Source: Rhodothermales bacterium (GTDB lineage Bacteria; Bacteroidota; Rhodothermia; Rhodothermales; UBA10348). From it: a stretch of DNA of 33,824 nt. The stretch covers positions 1 through 33,824 of the forward strand of contig JAURNP010000210.1 of NCBI GenBank assembly GCA_030830105.1. The letters run 5' to 3'. Both the position numbers and the translations under genes were made by a program. The notes beneath the pieces are model-generated. The model worked only from the letters and a program-made list of their open reading frames with translations, did not search any database and was not told the origin of the DNA. Below, piece by piece: positions 22,449 to 33,824 of this stretch (the stretch's first letter is position 1; every line of letters begins with the position of its first letter).

Positions 22449-22608
22449 ATGATTGGAGGCTGGTATGAAAAAAGCAGAAACGCTCCTTGACGGGCCACGT
22501 TAGGTGGAGCGGAAACAGAGGTGGAATCGCCCGGCGGGGTGGATATCAAAGTGCCTGCGCCCTAACCTCAGGAGACCAGTACAAACCACCCAATCAACTT
22601 GTTGCCGC

Positions 22609-23745
22609 ATGCCGGTTTCAGACGCCCACCGCATCCAGACCTCGGATCTTGACACGCCTCCCAGACTGCTTCTGGGGCCCGGTCCGTCAAATGCCCACCC
22701 GCGTGTGCTTCGCGCTTTGTCCAATCGTCAGGTTGGGCACCTGGACCCGACGTTCATCCATCTGATGAACGAAGTCCAGTCGCTGCTCAAGTACGCCTGG
22801 CAGACAGAAAACCCGGTGACCATTCCGGTGTCCGGTACGGGTAGTGCGGCCATGGAAGCCGCCGTGGCCAATACGGTAGAATCGGGAGATTCCGTTCTGG
22901 TAGGCTGTAATGGATATTTTGGTGAGCGGATGGTGGATATGGCTTCGCGCTATGGTGCCAGTGTTACGCGCATGGAAGCAGCGTGGGGGACTGCCTTTGA
23001 CCTGGAAACGATTCGCACGGCCATGGAATCCTGTCGCCCCCAGGTTCTGGGGTTGGTTCATGCCGAAACATCCACCGGTGCCCGGCAGCCGTTGGAAGGC
23101 GTACGCGATCTGTGTGATGAATTCGACTGCTTGCTGATCATTGATACGGTGACCAGTCTCGGGGGCGTTGAGCTCTTCCTGGATGAATGGGGTGTTGATG
23201 CGGCATACAGCGGCACACAGAAATGTCTCTCGTGCCCACCCGGACTTGGCCCGCTCACGCTAGGACCACGCGTCCTGGAACGCCTTGAAAAAAGGTCGCG
23301 TCCTGTTCCAAACTGGTACCTGGACATGTCATTGGTGGGCAAGTATTGGGGATCGGAGCGCACCTACCATCACACGGCGCCCATCAACATGAATTACGGG
23401 CTGCGCGAGGCTCTACGGCTGATTGCCGAAGAAGACCTTGAGGCTCGGTGGGAGCGGCATCGAACCAATGCCAACCTGCTCTGGGATGGTCTGGCGGATC
23501 TTGGATTATCCTGTCACGTGGATAAGGAGATTCGCCTTCCGAGTCTCACTACCGTTCGAGTGCCTGATGGGGTCGATTCCGGGCAGGTTGCCCGTACGCT
23601 GCTCACCGAGTACAACATCGAAATCGCCGGGGGGCTCGGTGCTCTTGCCGGCAAAGTATGGCGGGTCGGGTTGATGGGCTTCAACAGTCGCCCGGAAAAC
23701 GTGATGCTGCTGCTGGCTGCCCTCAAGAACGTCCTTCACCGCTGA
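22609..23745 (+). CDS. class V aminotransferase (alanine-glyoxylate/serine-pyruvate type)
   Basis: The 378-residue PLP enzyme matches the alanine-glyoxylate or serine-glyoxylate aminotransferase family. It has LLLGPGPSNAHPRVL at about 20-34, ending in a segment typical of the family start, then SGTGSAAMEAAV, Asp179 in IIDTVTSLGG for the pyridine nitrogen and the Schiff-base Lys205 in SGTQKCLSCPPG. YHHTAPINMNYGLREALRL and the C-terminal GLGALAGKVWRVGLMG are also typical. It would transfer an amino group from Ala or Ser to glyoxylate. Other class V activities such as 2-aminoethylphosphonate transaminase seem less likely. It is the first gene of a five-gene unit, and the next gene starts 5 bp downstream. 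ATG 22609 has no Shine-Dalgarno; the upstream open frame to 22504 has no family match. Confidence 0.9.
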   Translation: MPVSDAHRIQTSDLDTPPRLLLGPGPSNAHPRVLRALSNRQVGHLDPTFIHLMNEVQSLLKYAWQTENPVTIPVSGTGSAAMEAAVANTVESGDSVLVGCNGYFGERMVDMASRYGASVTRMEAAWGTAFDLETIRTAMESCRPQVLGLVHAETSTGARQPLEGVRDLCDEFDCLLIIDTVTSLGGVELFLDEWGVDAAYSGTQKCLSCPPGLGPLTLGPRVLERLEKRSRPVPNWYLDMSLVGKYWGSERTYHHTAPINMNYGLREALRLIAEEDLEARWERHRTNANLLWDGLADLGLSCHVDKEIRLPSLTTVRVPDGVDSGQVARTLLTEYNIEIAGGLGALAGKVWRVGLMGFNSRPENVMLLLAALKNVLHR

Positions 23746-23750
23746 CAGCC

Positions 23751-26700
23751 ATGCAAGCAGTGGATTATTCGGTCGTAAGCCCCGAGCAGGTAAGTGCCTG
23801 TATGGCGGCGCTGCAGCACAAGATTGGTGATGCTGTGCGCACTAATGCGTATCAGCGGATGCTCTACGCAACGGATGCCAGTATTTATCACGTGGAGCCT
23901 GCGGCCGTGGTCATTCCGCGTCATCGTGATGATCTGCAGGCCGTCATGGAAACGGCTGCCCAGTTTCATGTGCCGGTGACGGCGAGAGCGGCGGGAAGCA
24001 GTCTGGCTGGACAGGCCGTTGGAAGGGGGATCATCGTTGACGTGACCAAACATCTGGATCGCATCCTTGAGCTGGATCGCGATAACCATCAGGTAACGGT
24101 CGAGCCAGGAGTCGTGCTGGACGACTTGAATAGATTTCTGCGCGAAGAGCATTTGCTCTTCGGACCCGACCCGGCGTCCTCGAATCGGGCGGCTATGGGC
24201 GGTATCGTGTCCAACAATTCGACTGGCAGTCACTCAATCTGCTACGGCATGACAGCCGACCACGTCCATGCGATGGATGTGGTCTTGTCCGACGGCTCGC
24301 GCGCCTCCTTCAGTAACCTGGATGCTTCTTCTTTCGCCGATCGGGGGCAGCGCTCAGGAATGGAAGGCGCGATTTATCGCGGCATGAATGACTTGCTGAC
24401 GGATTCCCGGTCATTGGACATCATACGTCGCGATACTCCTCGGCATTGGCGCCGATGCGGCGGCTACAATCTGGACCGATTGGCCTCGGGCGGCGTGTCC
24501 TTCCTGAAAGACCATCCTCAAGGCCGCAACCTGGCCCGACTACTTTGTGGTGCGGAAGGCACCCTGGGCTTGATCGAGTCCATCACGCTGGACCTGGTCC
24601 CGCTGCCTCGATACACTGGACTGGCCATCGTCCACTTCCACGAAATTGTCCGAGCACTGGAAACGGTGCAGGTCATTCTCGAAGTGGAACCGAGTGCCGT
24701 GGAATTGCTCGACCACCTGGGTATGTCCATGTGCCGGCAGAGTCCCATGTGGCGGAAGAAGCTGGAAAGCTTCGTTGACGGCGAGCCTAATTCGATCCTG
24801 ATCACAGAATTCCAGGGTGATTCTGAAGCTGAGATTGTTGCCAAGATCGATCGATTGAAACGGCACCTCTCTGACAACGGTGCGCCTTCGCACGCTGTGG
24901 TCTCTGTATTGGATGTGCGTGGACAGAACGACGTCTGGTCGGTCCGAAAAATGGGGCTCGGGTTCCTGATGAGTGTGCGCGGGGATCACAAACCCATCCC
25001 GTTCATCGAGGATGCGGCAGTGCCCGTTGAACACCTCGCCGAGTATGTGACGGGGGTCGAGCGGTTCTGCAATGAGCGTGGACTGGATGTGGCCTACTAT
25101 GCGCACGCAAGCGCTGGTTGCGTGCATATCCGCCCCATGGTGAACACGAAGGCGGCTGAAGAAATTGCCCACTTGCCAGACATCATCCACTTCGCCATCG
25201 ACATGCTCAAAGGATTTGGCGGAGCCTTGTCCAGTGAGCACGGAGATGGGCGGGCTCGCTCTTCGTTCAATCGCTCCTTCTTCGGAGACAATCTCTACGG
25301 CCTTTACGAGCAGACCAAGCAGGTTTTTGATCCAAAGGGCATTTTGAATCCCGGCATCATCACCGGAGCCGACCCGATGACGGATCATCTGCGTTTCGGT
25401 CCGGATTACCGCACGCAGAAGCTGCGCACCAACCTCGATTTTACAGAGGACATGGGCTATGCAAGCGCGGTCGAGATGTGCAATGGGGCCGGCGTATGTC
25501 GAAAGCTGGGTTCGGGCACCATGTGTCCCTCCTTCATGGCAACTCGGGAAGAAGAACATTCCACCCGGGGACGGGCCAATGCGCTGCGCAACGTGCTCAA
25601 TGGCCGACTCGATCCGGATCTCCTGACAGGCGAGCGGCTCCACGAGACGATGGATCTGTGCCTGCAGTGCAAGGCGTGCAAGGCCGAATGCCCCTCATCG
25701 GTGGATATGGCCACCATCAAGGTCGAATTCCTGGATCGCTATCATCGTGCGAATGGAATCCCGCTTCGTGCGCGTTTCTTTGCTCGGGCTGCTTCGCAAG
25801 CCCGTATGTTCAGCGGCTGGTTGGCTCCGCTACTGAATAAGATTTCCAACCGTCCCTTCATGCGCCAACTGCTGGAGAAGACAGTCGGGATTTCCTCAAA
25901 ACGTACGCTTCCACCGTTCGCCGCAACGTCGTTTACGAGCTGGCACCGTCGCCATGCCCGTTCGATTTCATCCGCTGAGCAGGGCCGCAAGCGTGTGGTG
26001 CTGTTCAATGATACGTTCAACACCTACCATTATCCGGACGTCGCCCGCTGCGCCACTCTCTTCCTGGAGGCCTGCGGATTCGAGGTTATCCTCCCGGGTC
26101 ACCGCTGTTGTGGCCGGCCTGCCATCTCCAAGGGACTGGTGAACATGGCCCGGAAGCAAGCCTCACAGACGCTCGATAAGTTATTGCCTTTTGCCGAGGA
26201 GGGATTGCCCATCATCGGTCTCGAGCCGAGTTGCCTGCTTTCCTTCGGTGACGAGTATCACAAGCTGCTCCCTGGCGACCCCCGCGTTCAGGTTGTGGCC
26301 GAGCGAGCCATCCTGTTTGATTCGTTTGTAGCAAGCCTCGATGCGGATCGATTGCCCGCCATGAGCGGGTACGCGGAGGTGCTTTTGCACGGTCATTGCC
26401 ATCAGAAGGCCGATGTTGGCACGGCAGGCACACACGCTGCCATTGGACGCATCGATGGGTGCAGCGTCAACGAGGTCGATGCAGGCTGCTGTGGTATGGC
26501 TGGTTCGTTCGGGTTCGAGAAAGAACACTACGAGCTTTCCATGCAGATCGGCAAGCAGCGTCTGTTTCCGGCGGTGCGCGAAACACCCCGACATACAACA
26601 GTCGTTGCACCAGGCGTCAGCTGCCGTCAGCAAATCATTGAAGGGACGGGTCGTAAAGCCATCCATCCAGCCGAATTGATGTACCGCGCCATGCTGCGTG

Positions 26701-26774
26701 CTCAGGAATCAGGCGATGGCTCGACTGCAGCGGCTGTACCTGACATCGTCAGCACCTCCTTGGACGACTCATGA
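23751..26774 (+). CDS. FAD/Fe-S 2-hydroxyacid dehydrogenase (GlcD-GlcF fusion, YdiJ-like)
   Basis: The 1007-residue protein fuses a flavin dehydrogenase with an iron-sulfur electron-transfer part. The PCMH-type FAD domain spans about 48-270, with ARAAGSSLAGQ at 79-89 and GPDPASSNRAAMGG at 138-151, followed by the FAD-oxidase C-terminal domain to about 550. Two ferredoxin-like sites follow: Cys577, Cys583 and Cys592, and CLQCKACKAEC with Cys637, 640, 643 and 647. Two CCG motifs at 786-788 and 913-915 complete the heterodisulfide-reductase-like part. E. coli YdiJ has the same layout and length and oxidises D-2-hydroxyglutarate; relatives act on D-lactate or glycolate. Next to a glyoxylate-type aminotransferase, glycolate is possible. 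The quinone pool is the likely acceptor. The next gene overlaps its stop (ATGA). Confidence 0.92.
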   Translation: MQAVDYSVVSPEQVSACMAALQHKIGDAVRTNAYQRMLYATDASIYHVEPAAVVIPRHRDDLQAVMETAAQFHVPVTARAAGSSLAGQAVGRGIIVDVTKHLDRILELDRDNHQVTVEPGVVLDDLNRFLREEHLLFGPDPASSNRAAMGGIVSNNSTGSHSICYGMTADHVHAMDVVLSDGSRASFSNLDASSFADRGQRSGMEGAIYRGMNDLLTDSRSLDIIRRDTPRHWRRCGGYNLDRLASGGVSFLKDHPQGRNLARLLCGAEGTLGLIESITLDLVPLPRYTGLAIVHFHEIVRALETVQVILEVEPSAVELLDHLGMSMCRQSPMWRKKLESFVDGEPNSILITEFQGDSEAEIVAKIDRLKRHLSDNGAPSHAVVSVLDVRGQNDVWSVRKMGLGFLMSVRGDHKPIPFIEDAAVPVEHLAEYVTGVERFCNERGLDVAYYAHASAGCVHIRPMVNTKAAEEIAHLPDIIHFAIDMLKGFGGALSSEHGDGRARSSFNRSFFGDNLYGLYEQTKQVFDPKGILNPGIITGADPMTDHLRFGPDYRTQKLRTNLDFTEDMGYASAVEMCNGAGVCRKLGSGTMCPSFMATREEEHSTRGRANALRNVLNGRLDPDLLTGERLHETMDLCLQCKACKAECPSSVDMATIKVEFLDRYHRANGIPLRARFFARAASQARMFSGWLAPLLNKISNRPFMRQLLEKTVGISSKRTLPPFAATSFTSWHRRHARSISSAEQGRKRVVLFNDTFNTYHYPDVARCATLFLEACGFEVILPGHRCCGRPAISKGLVNMARKQASQTLDKLLPFAEEGLPIIGLEPSCLLSFGDEYHKLLPGDPRVQVVAERAILFDSFVASLDADRLPAMSGYAEVLLHGHCHQKADVGTAGTHAAIGRIDGCSVNEVDAGCCGMAGSFGFEKEHYELSMQIGKQRLFPAVRETPRHTTVVAPGVSCRQQIIEGTGRKAIHPAELMYRAMLRAQESGDGSTAAAVPDIVSTSLDDS

Positions 26775-28219
26775 GTACAAACCATCACATGACGCCCGAC
26801 GAATTCCGCAAGTTCGGAAAGCAAGTCGTGGACTGGATTGCCGATTACTACGAATGGGTGGAGTCCCGACCGGTTTTGCCCAACTTGGCTCCGGGCGATA
26901 TCCGGAAATCTCTTCCCGAGGATCCGCCCGAAATCGGAGAATCCTTCGAGCATATTTTGGGCGATGTGGACACGCTGATAGAGCCGGGACTGACGCACTG
27001 GCAGTCTCCGAAGTTCATGGCCTATTTCCCGAGTAACACCTCGTTTCCATCCATTCTGGGCGAGATGCTGGCAGCCGGGATGGGGCAGCAAGGCATGGTC
27101 TGGAAAACGAGTCCCGTGGCAACCGAGCTTGAGACGCATGTCATGGACTGGCTGGTTTCCCTGATGGGTTTACCGGAGCATTTCAAGGGCAACGGGGTCA
27201 TTCAGGACACAGCTTCGAGTGCCACGTTGTGCGCCCTGCTTGCCGCTCGCGAACGGGTCACTGGGGGAGCAGCCAATCGAGCAGGTGTGCCCTCGAACCT
27301 GGTGGCCTACACCTCTGATCAGGCGCATTCGTCCATCCAGAAGGCCGCGCGGATCGCGGGCATCGGGGACGAACGCATGCGGCTCATCCCATCGGATGAT
27401 CATTTCCGGATGGATACTGAGGCATTGGCCGCCGCGATCCGCGCGGACCTTGAAGGCGGCCTCACGCCGTTTTTCATTTGCGCCGCGGTGGGCACTACCT
27501 CTTCGATGGCCGTTGACAATGTGCAGGCCATCACCGACGTCGTACGGCGTGAGGCCGCTGACATTTGGGTGCATGTAGACGCCGCCATGGCAGGGACTGC
27601 GGCCGTATGCCCTGAATACCGATGGATCCACGACGGGGTTGAGGCGGCCGACTCCTACTGCTTCAACCCGCACAAGTGGATGTTCACCAATTTTGACTGC
27701 AATGCTTTCTGGGTGCGGGATCGCAAGCAATTGATTGATGCCCTGAGCATCCTGCCGGAGTACCTGCGAACGGCCGAGCATCTGAGTGGCGCCGCCATTG
27801 ACTACCGGGATTGGCAGATTCCACTTGGCCGCCGTTTTCGGGCCCTGAAACTGTGGTTTGTCCTTCGGCACTACGGTGCGGCCGGCCTGTGGCACCATAT
27901 TGCCGAGCACGTTCGTTTGGCAGAATCTTTCGAACACAACGTAGTTGCTCACGACGACTTCGAACTGGTCGTTCCGAGGACGCTCAACCTGGTGTGCTTC
28001 GCCCATCGTCGCGGAGACGCGTTTACCGAGGCGCTCATGGCAGCGGTAAATGCCACCGGTCAGCTGTATCTGAGTCACACCCGCTTGGGTGATCGGTATA
28101 CCATCCGTTGCAGTATCGGAGGGCGGGATCAGGAGCAGCGTCACGTAGATGTTGCCTGGAATCTGATTGTCCAGAAAGCCAAGCAACTAGAGGAGTCCGA
28201 AGGTGAGTCCCGTGGTTGA
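26771..28219 (+). CDS. group II PLP-dependent decarboxylase (aromatic-L-amino-acid type)
   Basis: The 482-residue enzyme matches the aromatic amino acid decarboxylase family. It opens with RKFGKQVVDWIADYYE, then LTHWQSPKFMAYFPSNTS and QDTASSATLCALLAARE. Asp270 in VHVDAAMAG and the PLP lysine Lys302 in NPHKWMFTNFDC mark the active site. The length is normal for the family. Likely substrates are Tyr, Phe, Trp or Dopa, giving the amine and CO2; some bacterial members instead catalyse oxidative deamination to aldehydes. ATG 26771 overlaps the upstream stop as ATGA, and its end overlaps the transporter start by 17 bp, so it belongs firmly to this unit. Why a decarboxylase sits with hydroxyacid genes is not explained by known pathways. 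Confidence 0.93.
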   Translation: MSTNHHMTPDEFRKFGKQVVDWIADYYEWVESRPVLPNLAPGDIRKSLPEDPPEIGESFEHILGDVDTLIEPGLTHWQSPKFMAYFPSNTSFPSILGEMLAAGMGQQGMVWKTSPVATELETHVMDWLVSLMGLPEHFKGNGVIQDTASSATLCALLAARERVTGGAANRAGVPSNLVAYTSDQAHSSIQKAARIAGIGDERMRLIPSDDHFRMDTEALAAAIRADLEGGLTPFFICAAVGTTSSMAVDNVQAITDVVRREAADIWVHVDAAMAGTAAVCPEYRWIHDGVEAADSYCFNPHKWMFTNFDCNAFWVRDRKQLIDALSILPEYLRTAEHLSGAAIDYRDWQIPLGRRFRALKLWFVLRHYGAAGLWHHIAEHVRLAESFEHNVVAHDDFELVVPRTLNLVCFAHRRGDAFTEALMAAVNATGQLYLSHTRLGDRYTIRCSIGGRDQEQRHVDVAWNLIVQKAKQLEESEGESRG

Positions 28220-29717
28220 TTCCGGCCATCCATCCGACCCACATCGCTTTTTGCGCGAGCGTCTCGGCACGTGGATCGGGCCCGCGCTGTTTGTCCTTTT
28301 TCTGGTCGTCCCCGCGCCCGATGACTTGAGCGTGGCTGCCTGGCAAACGGCAGGTATCGGACTCTGGATGGCCATTTGGTGGATGACCGAGGCCGTACCG
28401 ATTCCCATCACTTCGCTGTTGCCACTGATCCTTTTTCCTCCGCTCGATATTGCGCCTATTCGCGAAGCAGCCGAGCCCTATGCCAACCCACTCATCTATC
28501 TGTTCATGGGTGGATTCATGTTGGCCATCGGCATGGAAAAGACCGGCTTACACAAGCGCATCGCACTTTCTCTTCTGCGCAAGGTCGGAACGCGTCCCGA
28601 TGCCATCATCGGTGGATTCATGCTGTCCGGGGCGCTGCTCAGTATGTGGGTGACCAACACGGCCACCACGATGATGATGCTTCCCATCGGGCTTTCTGTG
28701 GTTGCCCTGGCCAAGGGACAATTGGATCACGACACATCTCCCAACCTGGGCCCGGCCCTGATGCTGGGGATTGCCTATTCCTGCACCATTGGAGGACTGG
28801 GGACGCTCATTGGAACGATTCCAAACGCGCTCGTGGCAGGCTTCATGCAGGAGACCTACGGGGTGGAGGTTGGCTTTGTCCAATGGATGGGAGTGGGTAT
28901 CCCATTGATCGTAGTGGGGCTTCCTCTGACCTGGTGGCTGCTTACGCGCGTCCTGTTTGATCTGGGCCGTGAGAGAATTGCCGGCATGGAGACACTGATC
29001 CAGGATTCTTTCTCCGAGTTAAGGAAGCCCTCGAAGGATGAAAAGGCCGTCTTCTGGGTTTTCGGAATGGTCGTACTGCTCTGGCTCACCAGACCCTTGC
29101 TCACGGGCTGGTTGCCCGGTCTTTCGGACACCGTCATCGCCCTGGGTGGAGCAATTATCCTGTTCCTGATTCCGTCCACCCAGCCGGGTCCAACATGGGA
29201 ATCGCGATTCCTCATCACCTGGCAGGATGCCAAACGACTACCGTGGGGTATTCTGGTCCTCTTCGGTGGTGGCCTCTCACTTGCAGCCTCGATCAGTACC
29301 ACGGGTCTTGCTGCCTGGTTGGGCTCCCTGATTTCAGGCGTCAGCAACTGGCCGGTCATTCTGATCATCCTGCTGGTCACGCTCCTGGTCATATTCCTGA
29401 CCGAGTTGACCTCCAATACGGCAACGACCGCTGCCTTCCTGCCAGTCATGGCCTCTGTGGCCCTGGGTATAGGACAGAATCCGTTCCTGCTGACTATTCC
29501 GGCCACGTTGGCAGCCAGCGCGGCGTTCATGCTGCCCGTAGCGACACCACCCAATGCCATCGTCTACGGGTCCAACCTGCTGACCATCCCGCAGATGGCC
29601 CGAACCGGCATCTGGATGAACCTGCTTTTCACCGTCGTGATGTCCGGGATGGCCTATTTTCTGGTTCAGTGGGTGTTCGGTGTGGAGCCGGGCATTCTTC
29701 CTTCCTGGGCTTCCTGA
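28203..29717 (+). CDS. SLC13/DASS-family sodium:dicarboxylate-type symporter
   Basis: The 504-residue inner-membrane protein has about eleven hydrophobic helices. It carries the two pseudo-repeat signatures of the DASS family: WVTNTATTMMMLPI in the first half and TELTSNTATTAAFLPV in the second, both with the SNT-like Asn-Thr that binds sodium and carboxylate. The early MTEAVPIPITSLLP block is typical. Such carriers import succinate, malate, citrate or sulfate with sodium. GTG 28203 is chosen because AGGAG (28191-28195) lies 7 nt before it, inside the previous gene; this also implies coupling. It could bring in the substrate of the upstream dehydrogenase or a related dicarboxylate. Confidence 0.93.
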   Translation: MSPVVDSGHPSDPHRFLRERLGTWIGPALFVLFLVVPAPDDLSVAAWQTAGIGLWMAIWWMTEAVPIPITSLLPLILFPPLDIAPIREAAEPYANPLIYLFMGGFMLAIGMEKTGLHKRIALSLLRKVGTRPDAIIGGFMLSGALLSMWVTNTATTMMMLPIGLSVVALAKGQLDHDTSPNLGPALMLGIAYSCTIGGLGTLIGTIPNALVAGFMQETYGVEVGFVQWMGVGIPLIVVGLPLTWWLLTRVLFDLGRERIAGMETLIQDSFSELRKPSKDEKAVFWVFGMVVLLWLTRPLLTGWLPGLSDTVIALGGAIILFLIPSTQPGPTWESRFLITWQDAKRLPWGILVLFGGGLSLAASISTTGLAAWLGSLISGVSNWPVILIILLVTLLVIFLTELTSNTATTAAFLPVMASVALGIGQNPFLLTIPATLAASAAFMLPVATPPNAIVYGSNLLTIPQMARTGIWMNLLFTVVMSGMAYFLVQWVFGVEPGILPSWAS

Positions 29718-29734
29718 CATTCTCTCATTTTGCC

Positions 29735-30688
29735 ATGCACCTGAGCAATACCCGTCAATCCATTTTTGTCGCAGGCCACCGCGGTCTTGTTGGGTCCGGC
29801 GTGGTTCGGGCGCTCAAGCATGCGGGGTTTGACCGATTGATACTCAGGACGCGGCAGGAGCTGGACCTGACGGACGCCGATGCAGTCCGCGCTTTCTACC
29901 AGGAGGAAAAGCCCGACTTCGTAGTAGTCGCTGCCGCCAAAGTTGGAGGGATCCTGGCCAACGACTCATACCCGGCAGATTTCCTGCACACGAATCTGGA
30001 GATTCAGTCGAATGTGATTCATGGCGCCCATGAGGCCGGAGTAAAACGGCTGCTGTTCCTGGGAAGCACCTGCATCTATCCGAAGCTGGCGCCGCAGCCA
30101 CTCAAGGAAGAATACCTGCTCACGGGTCCATTGGAGCCAACCAATCAGTGGTATGCGATCGCCAAGATTGCTGGCGTGAAGCTCTGTGAGGCGCTTCGAA
30201 GCCAATACGGAGTGGACTTCGTCTCCATGATGCCGACGAATATGTACGGCCCGGGGGACAACTTTGACCTGAATTCATCGCATGTACTGCCCGCGCTCAT
30301 CCGCAAATTCCACGAAGCAAAAGGAACGTCGGATCCGGTAACACTTTGGGGGACAGGGTCGCCCAAGCGCGAATTCATGTATGTGGACGATCTGGCTTCT
30401 TCTATCCTGCACGTGCTCCAGACGCCGGAGGATCAGCTCTTCGATGCCGCTCCCGACGGCTTGATCAACGCAGGGGTAGGACACGACCTGTCCATCGCCG
30501 AGCTTGCCGAAACCATCAAGCAGGTTGTCGGAGCGGATAATGCGATCTCGTACGATACGTCCAAGCCGGACGGTACGCCCCGCAAACTGGTCGATGTGAC
30601 ACGGCTTTTCTCCCTCGGATGGAGGCCTGAAGTGGACCTGAAAGAAGGCATCCGTCGAACCTACGAGTGGTACCAAGCTCAGCACTGA
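29735..30688 (+). CDS. fcl: GDP-L-fucose synthase
   Basis: This short-chain-dehydrogenase-type enzyme turns GDP-4-keto-6-deoxy-D-mannose into GDP-L-fucose by epimerisation at C3 and C5 and reduction with NADPH. The 317 residues show the nucleotide-binding GHRGLVGSG at 14-22, the catalytic Ser111 and Cys113 in FLGSTCIYP, and Tyr140 and Lys144 in the YAIAK motif. MPTNMYGPGDNFD and GTGSPKREFMYVDDLA are family signatures. The length is normal. Its usual partner gmd is not in the window. ATG 29735 starts 17 bp after the transporter stop; the frame is open far upstream, but only as an out-of-frame shadow of the transporter. It may be the last gene of the operon by position rather than by function. 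The product feeds fucosylated surface glycans. Confidence 0.95.
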   Translation: MHLSNTRQSIFVAGHRGLVGSGVVRALKHAGFDRLILRTRQELDLTDADAVRAFYQEEKPDFVVVAAAKVGGILANDSYPADFLHTNLEIQSNVIHGAHEAGVKRLLFLGSTCIYPKLAPQPLKEEYLLTGPLEPTNQWYAIAKIAGVKLCEALRSQYGVDFVSMMPTNMYGPGDNFDLNSSHVLPALIRKFHEAKGTSDPVTLWGTGSPKREFMYVDDLASSILHVLQTPEDQLFDAAPDGLINAGVGHDLSIAELAETIKQVVGADNAISYDTSKPDGTPRKLVDVTRLFSLGWRPEVDLKEGIRRTYEWYQAQH

Positions 30689-30715: not shown

Positions 30716-33700
30716 TCAATGTACTACGTTCCGCTCGCGCAGCAGCCGGATCACGGCATGCGAAAACAAGGGGCGGATGCGATAGGACTGACCCGCATCG
30801 ACGGCTGTATGCCGATACATGCGGCCAGCCTCCCTTTTTTCGGTGGTCTCGATGACCAATGCATTTCCGAGAGTCTCGAACAAAGTAAGCGCCTTGTCTT
30901 CCGACAGCCGGTCGATGCGTGCATACTCGTTCGGTGTCAAAGATCCGTGCTCGAGAATAGCCTTGAGGGCGAATACCTGGTCCATATTGAAGCCCGAGAA
31001 AAATGACAGGTTCAGTGCCGGTGCATGGGACACTCGCATCGAAGCGGCATCTTCGGACATGCTGACGGAGCGAATCCATTGCAGCAGAGCCATCTGAATG
31101 TTCTGTCCGAACTGATTGAAGAGCCGATCGAAGAAGGCCTCCCGCAGGATCTGCTGCTGGCGCTCGCGACTGGTGACGCGACGCAATTTGCGGCGGAGCA
31201 GAGGGCTGGGCTCTTCGGGCTTTACGAATTCCAACGGGATGCCGCTCTTGCGGTGACGCTCCATGATGAGCCGTTCGAGGTCCGCACGGTTCAGGTCTGT
31301 CATGGCGTGCTGGCTGACCAGGGAAGCCGAATCGGGATCCGCCGTTTTGAGGATTTGCCAAGCAAACGTTGAAATGGTACCGATCCAGATGATGCGTGAG
31401 TCTGTAAGCGACATCAACTGAAGGACATCCACCAGCAAGTCATAACCCCCGATACCACGCAGGATGAGGACCTCAAGATGCTCCACCATGCAGACAGGAG
31501 CGTTTTGACCCTCGAGGGACATGGAGATGGCCTTGGCGGCCTCGGAAACCGTGTTTACCTCCGGCATTGGAAGGTCCAGAGAGGTACCAAGGAAAGCCAG
31601 GAGCTCCTTGGGACTACTGGGGCGATTCTCCAGGCGGGCAATCCGAAGGTCACGGTCTTTGAGACGCGTTGCCCTCAGGACATTGAGCAAGCTGGTGCGT
31701 CCTGAGGATGGGCCTCCCACCAGGATAGCCGACTGCGGCATACCCAGGTCAAATTGCTCCAACTGGTTTTCAATGAATGTCAGACTCTGGTCTCGACCAA
31801 TGAGGAGGTCCGAGTCCGAAAGGGGCTGGAACGAGAACAGTTTTCGGTAAACGGTCGGGACGTCCTCGAGGACAGCTTCGAGTTCGGCAAGTCCCAGCGC
31901 GGTTTCGTGAAAGGAGGCACGTGTGGGCGAGGGAGTGCCAACCGCTTCTTTTCCACGTTCAATGAGCGCGCGCGCTTCGCGGTGGCCCCGCAGGAAAAGG
32001 CGTTCGAAAAGCACCCCTGCCTGGCGGGCAAAGCGTGAGAGTCGCTGACCCGCTTCGCGCGCTTCCGCATCGATGCGTGATCGCACATCCATCACGTAAG
32101 CACCAACCTGATGTTCTACCTCCAAGCGATCCTGGATCCGGGTCCATGCTTCGAATGACTCACGGCGGTACACATGTGTCAACATAGAAGCGCCCTCTTC
32201 GATGCGATCGCCTATGGTAGCGATCGCATCGCGGGTACGACGCAGACTTTCCTGAATCATGCTCACGAGCTGATCAGGGTCCTCCGCAACGCTATCAGGA
32301 GTTTCTGTCGGTTCTGTCTCGGATGATTCACCGGTCGCCGCCTCAATCGAAAAGCGTACGATGGATGGGAGGTTGACTAATTCCTCGAGGACCTCTTTCA
32401 GGTCGTTCTTGGCATCCCGCGTTCCCTCGGACAGTTCCTCTGCGTCTATTTCGACCGTGCCTTTGCGTGCGATTTCACGCAAGCCAATAATCCGGGCATC
32501 CTGATCCGGAGCGATCAATGACTCACTTTCCGAAGAAAGTGGATGGACCCGGAATGATTCGGGCAGCGCTTCAATCACGGCGGAGAGCCCGTCGAGAAAA
32601 GCCTGATTCTCGTCTGGAATCCGGGTTAGCAGGGACAATTCCTGGATTGGCTCGATCAGTTCCTCCTGTACCCGGCGAACAGCCTCCTCGCCGAGCGATT
32701 GAAGCCGGCTTGCCCGATCCGAAAAAAGGCCTTCTCCCGATGGTTGGGATCTGGAATCAAGCTGCTGCTCCGTTTCTTCCAGGCGCGCAGCAACCGCCAT
32801 GGTCCGCCGCCTGATGGGCTGGACCAAATGATTTTCAACCCCTTGCCGGGTTCCGTACACCAGTTCGTGCAAGGACGTACGCAGTGCGGCCAGTGTCACC
32901 AGGAACTCTGATCGCTCCTGAACTCGGGATGTCCATTCCTTCCAGGTGGGCGCCTGGGAAGCAATGCGATCGAGTCTCCCAGCAAAGACGTCATCTGCGA
33001 TAGTGGGGATATCGCTCATGAAAGAGCTTGCGCGCTCGAATTCCGTCTGTAACGGGATCCACGCCTGTTCGATACACCGGTCGACACCTGCGGCCGCACG
33101 GCACGACAGATCGTCTCCAGCCGCCCGGAAAACCTCCTGTAGTCGATCGGCAGCTCGATGAACAGAGGCCATGACATCTGGAGATACATCGCCCTCCATA
33201 TCCTGGGATAGCTGCCATTGATTCTCGGCTCGAAGGATGGCATACACCAGATCGGAAACAGCCCGTTCGATGGTAGTCATCACACGGGCAGCCCGGCTGC
33301 GGTCGTCGTCCAGCACCTTTCCGAACTGAACCGGAATCCACTCCCGAGCAAATGCCCTTCCAAGAGCACCCACGGGGACTTCGCGTAGACGTGATTCCGG
33401 TGCAGAGCCGAAGCTGCGGGTCAGACGAACCATGCCTTTTCGCGCGGCGGTCAGCGCGCTATCCGCAGATGATGGTTCGTAGAGACGCTCCGGCTCTACG
33501 TCTTCCAACGTGTCGGGCCAATCTCCTACATACGCATCCATCTCTGTTAACCAATCGCAGAAAAGGCGGGCCAGTTCGTCTGGGGACAGCAGCGTTGAGG
33601 TAAGCCTTTGGTAGGCAGGCAAGAATGCCTCCTGAAGGTGTTCGCGAGCTTCTTCTAGGTCGGTAGGTTGCGAGGGGCCTGGGGCAAGTCGGGCTACCTC

Positions 33701-33814
33701 GGACAAGCCTTGTTGCACCTGCGTGATCCGTTCATCGACGCAGTCTGCAAATCGATGACCGCCTTCGAAAGCAGCAGTCCGCAGGGCGGTGAGCATGGTC
33801 TTTGGACTATGCAT
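30716..33814 (-). CDS. large helical protein with a P-loop (AAA+/STAND-like) ATPase domain, function unknown
   Basis: The 1032-residue protein is rich in Glu, Arg, Leu and Ala for about its first 650 residues, with long predicted helices or coiled coils. A related motif recurs: EWIPVQF and QAWIPLQTEFE, suggesting repeats. From about 680 there is an ATPase domain, opening with LLIGRDQSLTFIENQL, then Walker A VGGPSSGRTSLLN, where Arg706 stands in place of the usual Lys. Walker B is VCMVEHLEVL, with Glu778 and no preceding Asp. A sensor-like strand RIIWIGTISTFAW follows, and the last 130 residues look like a winged helix (SLTPNEYARIDRLSEDKALTLFETL). No signal peptide or membrane helix is seen. 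ATG 33814 follows GGAGG at the very edge of the window; GTG 33820 or a more distant start outside the window is possible. It may be a STAND-like switch or a structural ATPase. Confidence 0.75.
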   Translation of the reverse strand: MHSPKTMLTALRTAAFEGGHRFADCVDERITQVQQGLSEVARLAPGPSQPTDLEEAREHLQEAFLPAYQRLTSTLLSPDELARLFCDWLTEMDAYVGDWPDTLEDVEPERLYEPSSADSALTAARKGMVRLTRSFGSAPESRLREVPVGALGRAFAREWIPVQFGKVLDDDRSRAARVMTTIERAVSDLVYAILRAENQWQLSQDMEGDVSPDVMASVHRAADRLQEVFRAAGDDLSCRAAAGVDRCIEQAWIPLQTEFERASSFMSDIPTIADDVFAGRLDRIASQAPTWKEWTSRVQERSEFLVTLAALRTSLHELVYGTRQGVENHLVQPIRRRTMAVAARLEETEQQLDSRSQPSGEGLFSDRASRLQSLGEEAVRRVQEELIEPIQELSLLTRIPDENQAFLDGLSAVIEALPESFRVHPLSSESESLIAPDQDARIIGLREIARKGTVEIDAEELSEGTRDAKNDLKEVLEELVNLPSIVRFSIEAATGESSETEPTETPDSVAEDPDQLVSMIQESLRRTRDAIATIGDRIEEGASMLTHVYRRESFEAWTRIQDRLEVEHQVGAYVMDVRSRIDAEAREAGQRLSRFARQAGVLFERLFLRGHREARALIERGKEAVGTPSPTRASFHETALGLAELEAVLEDVPTVYRKLFSFQPLSDSDLLIGRDQSLTFIENQLEQFDLGMPQSAILVGGPSSGRTSLLNVLRATRLKDRDLRIARLENRPSSPKELLAFLGTSLDLPMPEVNTVSEAAKAISMSLEGQNAPVCMVEHLEVLILRGIGGYDLLVDVLQLMSLTDSRIIWIGTISTFAWQILKTADPDSASLVSQHAMTDLNRADLERLIMERHRKSGIPLEFVKPEEPSPLLRRKLRRVTSRERQQQILREAFFDRLFNQFGQNIQMALLQWIRSVSMSEDAASMRVSHAPALNLSFFSGFNMDQVFALKAILEHGSLTPNEYARIDRLSEDKALTLFETLGNALVIETTEKREAGRMYRHTAVDAGQSYRIRPLFSHAVIRLLRERNVVH

Positions 33815-33824
33815 GGCCACCTCC

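Follow-up and report, generated by a model that had tools for sequence, protein, structure and literature searches.

Introduction

Membrane tension is usually given as the sole gating stimulus of MscS-family channels, and none of them is known to us to have an obligate AAA+ partner. A search of open-licence papers returned no description of an AAA+ partner of MscS or of a gene pair such as the one described here; in E. coli, the MscS cytoplasmic domain is reported to interact with FtsZ (PMC4440785). The locus analyzed here pairs an MscS-family gene with a gene for a large AAA+ protein. In layout, this protein is similar to the ORC/Cdc6 initiators (2qby; 7jgr, chain G), which also have a GR box before the P-loop and a winged helix behind the AAA+ core; however, it is only 10–15% identical to them, lacks the Walker A Lys and the Walker B Asp-Glu, and carries a long helical N-terminus and a membrane-channel partner. 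Some ORC subunits also carry degenerate sites. The STAND NTPases (nSTAND1 and nSTAND3) and the AAA_16/AAA_22 families show weak sequence matches to members of the new family, and many Rhodothermales members share the STAND-like Walker B form hhhhDxhE, but the protein studied here falls below the gathering score. The channel partner shares PF00924 with MscS-family channels in general, from which it would differ in having an obligate AAA+ partner. Distant members carry PF00999 or PF00324 at their N-terminus, as Na+/H+ exchangers and SLC12 cotransporters do; unlike in ordinary exchangers and cotransporters, the transporter part continues into the helical-AAA+ module, and an MscS gene comes next. 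Each part is of a known kind; what appears undescribed is how they are paired, their fusion to transporters, and the degenerate P-loop shared across the order.

Results

The gene is complete and constrained

The window, i.e., the whole stretch of DNA analyzed (33,824 nucleotides), is an entire contig (G000:C178) of a Rhodothermales draft genome of 2.5 Mb in 221 contigs. At 30716–33814 on the minus strand, it contains a coding sequence with an ATG at 33814 for a 1032-residue protein with helical, AAA+, and winged-helix parts; this gene is complete, and the partner gene upstream of it is truncated by the contig end. Translation and direct reading of the codon confirmed the open reading frame and the CGC codon of Arg706 (31697–31699, minus strand), which replaces the Walker A Lys, as described in the first-pass annotation. 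A simple hydropathy scan found no transmembrane segments in the protein. Relative to its nearest relative, the gene shows a pN of 0.167 and a pS of 0.767 (non-synonymous and synonymous change per site), with the strongest constraint in the C-terminal third (pN 0.066 and 0.114 vs. pS 0.81 and 0.70). Judged by these substitution rates, the gene is genuine and under strong purifying selection. In the AAA+ part, pN is 0.114 and pS is 0.703, and since pN is far below pS, this domain is maintained despite its altered P-loop. To the left of the gene (22504–30688) lie what we take, from our own reading of the sequences, to be genes for an aminotransferase-like protein, a large oxidase-like protein, an SLC13-type transporter, and a GDP-fucose synthase-like protein, whose order beside the ATPase gene is kept in several genomes of the family.

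The AAA+ domain is predicted to adopt an ORC/Cdc6-type fold

The protein starts with a helical region (residues 1–640; 31895–33814), which is followed by the AAA+ core (residues 641–870; 31205–31894) and a C-terminal winged-helix-like domain (about residues 934–1032; 30719–31015), all on the minus strand. On the same strand, an LLIGRD box (residues 670–675; 31790–31807) precedes the P-loop, with R674 present in 25 of 26 Rhodothermales rows, and an RHRKSG motif (residues 853–858; 31241–31258) is among the most conserved of the domain; R853 is found in all 59 rows that have a residue there, Lys-type and Arg-type alike. Alignment and AlphaFold2 models thus agree with the GRD box, helical N-terminus, and winged-helix end that had been proposed from the sequence.

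Modeling with AlphaFold2 used alignments of six close sequences (mean pLDDT 64). In the full-length model, the first ~620 residues are almost entirely helix, with pLDDT mostly 70–90 to about residue 560, and the AAA+ part has a pLDDT of about 25; a fold search with this model returned nothing significant, for the N-terminal helical region as for the rest. Folding the domain alone resolved the AAA+ core (pLDDT mostly 70–90), followed by the winged-helix-like end. The top Foldseek matches of this domain were Cdc6/ORC proteins (8.1e-7), and VIA-align against Drosophila Cdc6 (7jgr_G) gave a Z of 13.4 and an rmsd of 5.7 over 229 aligned residues; because the aligned range ends near residue 306 of 403, the support for the winged helix comes from the secondary structure of the model and from a profile of 26 family domains, the winged-helix part of which matches the MarR-type protein YusO (2.1e-5). 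In the model, the AAA+ domain has the features of the ORC/Cdc6-type fold, namely an alpha/beta core, an ORC-type lid, and a C-terminal winged helix.

Profile searches with the window protein alone (Pfam, NCBIfam, PADLOC, and PDB sequences) yielded no significant family, and no Pfam model reached its cut-off. AAA_16 (PF13191) scored 18.7 bits with the whole protein and 22.8 bits with the domain alone, below the gathering cut-off of 32.6. Among the 26 family domains, AAA_16 matched 20 and AAA_22 matched 17, and nSTAND1 and nSTAND3 each weakly matched five, the window protein not being one of them; no sensor-type repeats were recognized behind its winged helix. The profile of 26 family domains also gave weak AAA matches. 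By fold, the protein belongs with AAA+ proteins of the ORC/Cdc6-like or STAND-like type, and none of the libraries searched has a model of its family. The profile and fold searches brought up no close characterized family, ORC/Cdc6 being the nearest by structure; the first-pass annotation is borne out in that this is an uncharacterized AAA+ protein with a truly altered P-loop, a change shared across the order (see below).

As the best structural matches are origin-binding proteins and the winged helix matches a MarR-type regulator, the protein could be read as a DNA-binding or initiator-like regulator. However, the same domain is fused to membrane transporters in other members and has a constant channel partner (see below), which indicates a membrane location, and STAND proteins have winged helices that do not bind DNA; we therefore regard a role on DNA as highly improbable.

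A probable single loss of the Walker A Lys in Rhodothermales

Where active AAA+ and STAND ATPases have GxxxxGK[ST], the window protein has GGPSSGRT (residues 700–707; 31694–31717, minus strand; residues 700–708 read GGPSSGRTS). Its Walker B-like strand, identified by alignment, is PVCMVEHLE (residues 773–781; 31472–31498, minus strand), with Glu778-His779 in place of Asp-Glu and hence a single acid, at the Asp position. Residue 778 is Glu or Asp in 39 of 39 Rhodothermales rows, residue 779 is His, Asn, Gly, Gln, Arg, or Asp, and no row of the family alignment has Glu at 779. The absence of the Asp-Glu pair, which had been pointed out in this protein, is thus real, but it characterizes the entire family, even the GK members.

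Homologues were gathered from 42 of 114 genomes of the order and 71 of 395 genomes of the phylum, and those in Rhodothermales mostly match along their entire length. At the Walker A position, the 39 Rhodothermales rows have Arg in 28, Met in three, Leu and Ala in two each, and Val, Ser, Gly, and Gln in one each, and none has Lys; by contrast, 19 of the 21 rows outside the clade, transporter-fused proteins included, have Lys, the others having Ala and Asn. The first P-loop Gly is kept in all 21 outside rows but in only 14 of the 39 Rhodothermales rows; besides the Lys position, Gly700 and Gly703 are eroded there, Gly705 is invariant, and Thr/Ser707 is always present. In a maximum-likelihood tree of the domain, the Rhodothermales sequences form one clade on a long branch with a support of 100/100. 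One Rhodothermales genome (G031) has two copies: one is of the Gln type, and the other, a distant copy fused to SLC12, retains GKTT.

The presence of Arg in 28 genomes rules out a sequencing or assembly error as its source. It had been argued that homologues with a normal GK would make Arg706 a private change; such homologues exist, yet Arg706 is not private, as it is shared by most Rhodothermales homologues. Nor is it universal in the family, given the 11 Rhodothermales rows with other residues and the Lys of the outside rows. Arg is, rather, an order-wide lineage feature. Rhodothermales probably lost the Lys a single time, at the base of the order, after which the site decayed further. In the simplest history, Lys changed to Arg once at the base, Arg then decayed in several lineages, and one family outside the order (L079 and L080) lost its Lys independently.

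Since the Walker A site has decayed in Rhodothermales, the protein is most likely non-hydrolyzing there. A different possibility is a slow or ATP-locked switch, in which Arg706 would hold the phosphates, ATP would stay bound, and a slow hydrolysis cycle would be the signal to the channel. The retention of Arg in most of the order, the invariant Gly705, the constant Thr/Ser707, and the strong purifying selection on the gene are all consistent with such a switch; however, Arg has given way to seven other residues in several families, and the first P-loop Gly is lost in 25 rows, a drift not expected at a position essential for binding. We consider this switch unlikely. Because Arg itself has decayed in 11 of the 39 rows, a loss of catalysis explains the pattern better than a switch specific to Arg, and of the earlier proposal of a nucleotide switch that hydrolyzes slowly or not at all, the part that stands is that little or no hydrolysis is probable. 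Although the Arg kept in 28 rows may still do something, the motif pattern most likely marks the Rhodothermales protein as a pseudo-ATPase and not as a slow motor.

An MscS-family channel gene accompanies the ATPase gene

The 18 bases at the right end of the window (33807–33824, minus strand), read in the frame of the upstream gene, encode GGGHA and a stop codon, i.e., the last five codons of an MscS-family channel gene, which shares 8 bases with the start of the ATPase gene; in the nearest relative (L030), the MscS protein terminates in GGGHADA at the matching position. The N-terminal portion of the channel lies at the very end of another contig of the same genome (C63), so that the middle of the gene falls in an assembly gap between C63 and the window. 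Only these ends are assembled in this genome. The beta-domain PF00924 was identified in the partners of its relatives, where it is above the cut-off (E 4.7e-21 in L031 and 2.5e-21 in L035). Inspection of what lies beyond the right edge of the window, which had been suggested as a place to find a conserved partner, thus led to an MscS-family channel.

In 33 of 33 Rhodothermales loci and 19 of 19 other loci with enough flanking sequence, an MscS gene lies next to the ATPase gene on the same strand; with two SLC12-fused loci, where the ATPase gene shares its end with a short MscS-like gene, this amounts to 54 of 54 assessable loci. The two genes usually overlap or lie a few bases apart and are presumably co-transcribed. 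MscS is upstream of the ATPase gene in Rhodothermales, whereas it is downstream elsewhere, indicating that the association outlived a rearrangement.

The two genes also occur together across genomes. Among 57 genomes of the order, which are related and hence are not 57 independent points, the ATPase is present in 29 and absent from 28; the MscS subfamily (E below 1e-60) was found in 28 of the former and none of the latter. The sole ATPase-bearing genome without an MscS match is that of the window, in which the channel gene is split by the contig break, and in one genome that appeared to have MscS without the ATPase (G019), an ATPase fragment adjoins MscS. In genus g12, one species (G042) has both genes and four (G028, G052, G111, and G203) have neither; in G042, 4.3 kb separate the two flanking genes, compared with 21 to 77 bases in these four Rhodothermus-type relatives. 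The flanking genes are adjacent where both genes are missing, which argues that the channel-ATPase pair comes or goes as a unit. The pair has similar neighbors in other families (L042, L051, and L053), so the empty sites of g12 more likely reflect loss of the whole unit than gain, as judged from gene order.

This patchy distribution (42 of the 114 genomes of the order), together with the weak nSTAND matches of the AAA+ parts, might suggest a defense system in which a STAND-like sensor opens the MscS channel and kills or arrests an infected cell; known defense systems do include channel-forming effectors. However, in several families of the order, the pair sits at one and the same site of the chromosome, next to a sigma-70 gene; its neighbors are conserved within the family, and fusions to ion transporters occur. 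PADLOC gave no significant match for the window protein (only DruC at 0.012, on the helical stretch) and none for the channel, and a marginal AAA-level match to mad8 (about 2e-4 to 3e-4) appeared in two distant members; no plasmid match was found, leaving spread by plasmids unsupported. Defense is, in our judgment, quite unlikely.

Distant members are fused to ion transporters

Distant members of the family (L084–L087 and probably L088) have a membrane N-terminus. The PF00999 Na+/H+ exchanger domain was found in L084 and L086 and is below threshold in L087 and L088. Four of these proteins, of about 1500 residues (L084:7185-11690, L085:7054-11550, and L086:6895-11382, minus strand; L087:3967-8463, plus strand), contain the helical-AAA+ module, in which the GK is normal, and an MscS gene follows directly. 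L048 and L094 carry the PF00324 amino-acid permease domain, with a weak PF03522 SLC12 match in L048. In these loci (L048:10079-15139 and L094:6982-12069, minus strand), an SLC12-like cotransporter is fused to a distant copy of the module in a protein of about 1690 residues, and the MscS-like gene that overlaps the end of the fusion encodes about 245 residues.

The strict pairing, the overlapping genes, and the AAA+ fold would also suit an assembly factor or chaperone that inserts or oligomerizes the MscS heptamer and does not regulate the finished channel. Yet, to our knowledge, other MscS channels need no AAA+ assembly factor, the transporter fusions suggest a lasting complex, and lost catalysis is ill-suited to a remodeling ATPase, so that we find such a factor about as improbable as a defense system. 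The defense, initiator, and chaperone readings are all weaker than that of a subunit or regulator of MscS.

The protein is a candidate regulatory partner of the channel

As the family is conserved and always beside an MscS gene, it probably forms an undescribed channel-regulating complex. We consider it reasonably probable that the protein is a cytosolic AAA+ partner of the MscS channel and, in Rhodothermales, most likely a non-hydrolyzing scaffold or subunit, although two genes kept together could serve one process without their products touching. The overlapping pair would encode the channel and a cytosolic partner that contacts it, in which the ORC/Cdc6-type AAA+ domain and winged helix sit on a long helical arm. 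In the Lys-type majority of the family, the AAA+ domain probably binds ATP and may act as a nucleotide-dependent switch that controls how the channel gates or assembles; in fusions with an Na+/H+ exchanger or SLC12 cotransporter, the module may act on that transporter too. After the basal Lys-to-Arg change and further decay, the Rhodothermales protein would have become a non-hydrolyzing scaffold or a subunit insensitive to nucleotide state. Seen this way, the ATPase would be a cytosolic AAA+ regulator of osmotic ion channels, with a putative role in osmotic or ionic homeostasis. Of the settings that had been guessed at for the protein (envelope, chromosome, or defense), the constant MscS partner and the transporter fusions favor the membrane, and chromosome and defense are little supported.

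We suggest more tentatively, and at somewhat less than even chance, that these proteins represent a new class of membrane machine, in which an ORC-like AAA+ domain on a helical arm gates or coordinates MscS and, in the fused forms, the exchanger or cotransporter too, and which has become a pseudo-ATPase in one order. If so, salt transport and emergency release would be joined in one complex. An AAA+ partner dedicated to a single MscS subfamily throughout a phylum, and joined to salt transporters in other members, would imply that turgor release is, in some bacteria, under an added nucleotide-linked or structural control. The Lys-type and Arg-type branches offer a natural experiment on the need for ATP hydrolysis in channel control.

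Variants of the channel and the ATPase

At their start, most Rhodothermales MscS partners have a lipoprotein-like signal (e.g., LILSGC) together with an acidic stretch rich in Ser and Thr (examples are L030:6914-8023, L031:6848-7981, and L035:5600-6937), and the partner in L043 is 660 residues long, with a long extra N-terminal part. In the family of the window, another MscS gene, in divergent orientation, is found immediately upstream of the partner channel (G000:C63:17442-18230, minus strand; also in L030, L031, L034, and L039). Short versions of the ATPase, of about 413–430 residues (L082:6929-8215, minus strand; L083:6946-8187, plus strand), lack the helical arm and are still adjacent to MscS, suggesting that the AAA+ domain and winged helix are the core that goes with the channel; these short versions are a convenient minimal construct.
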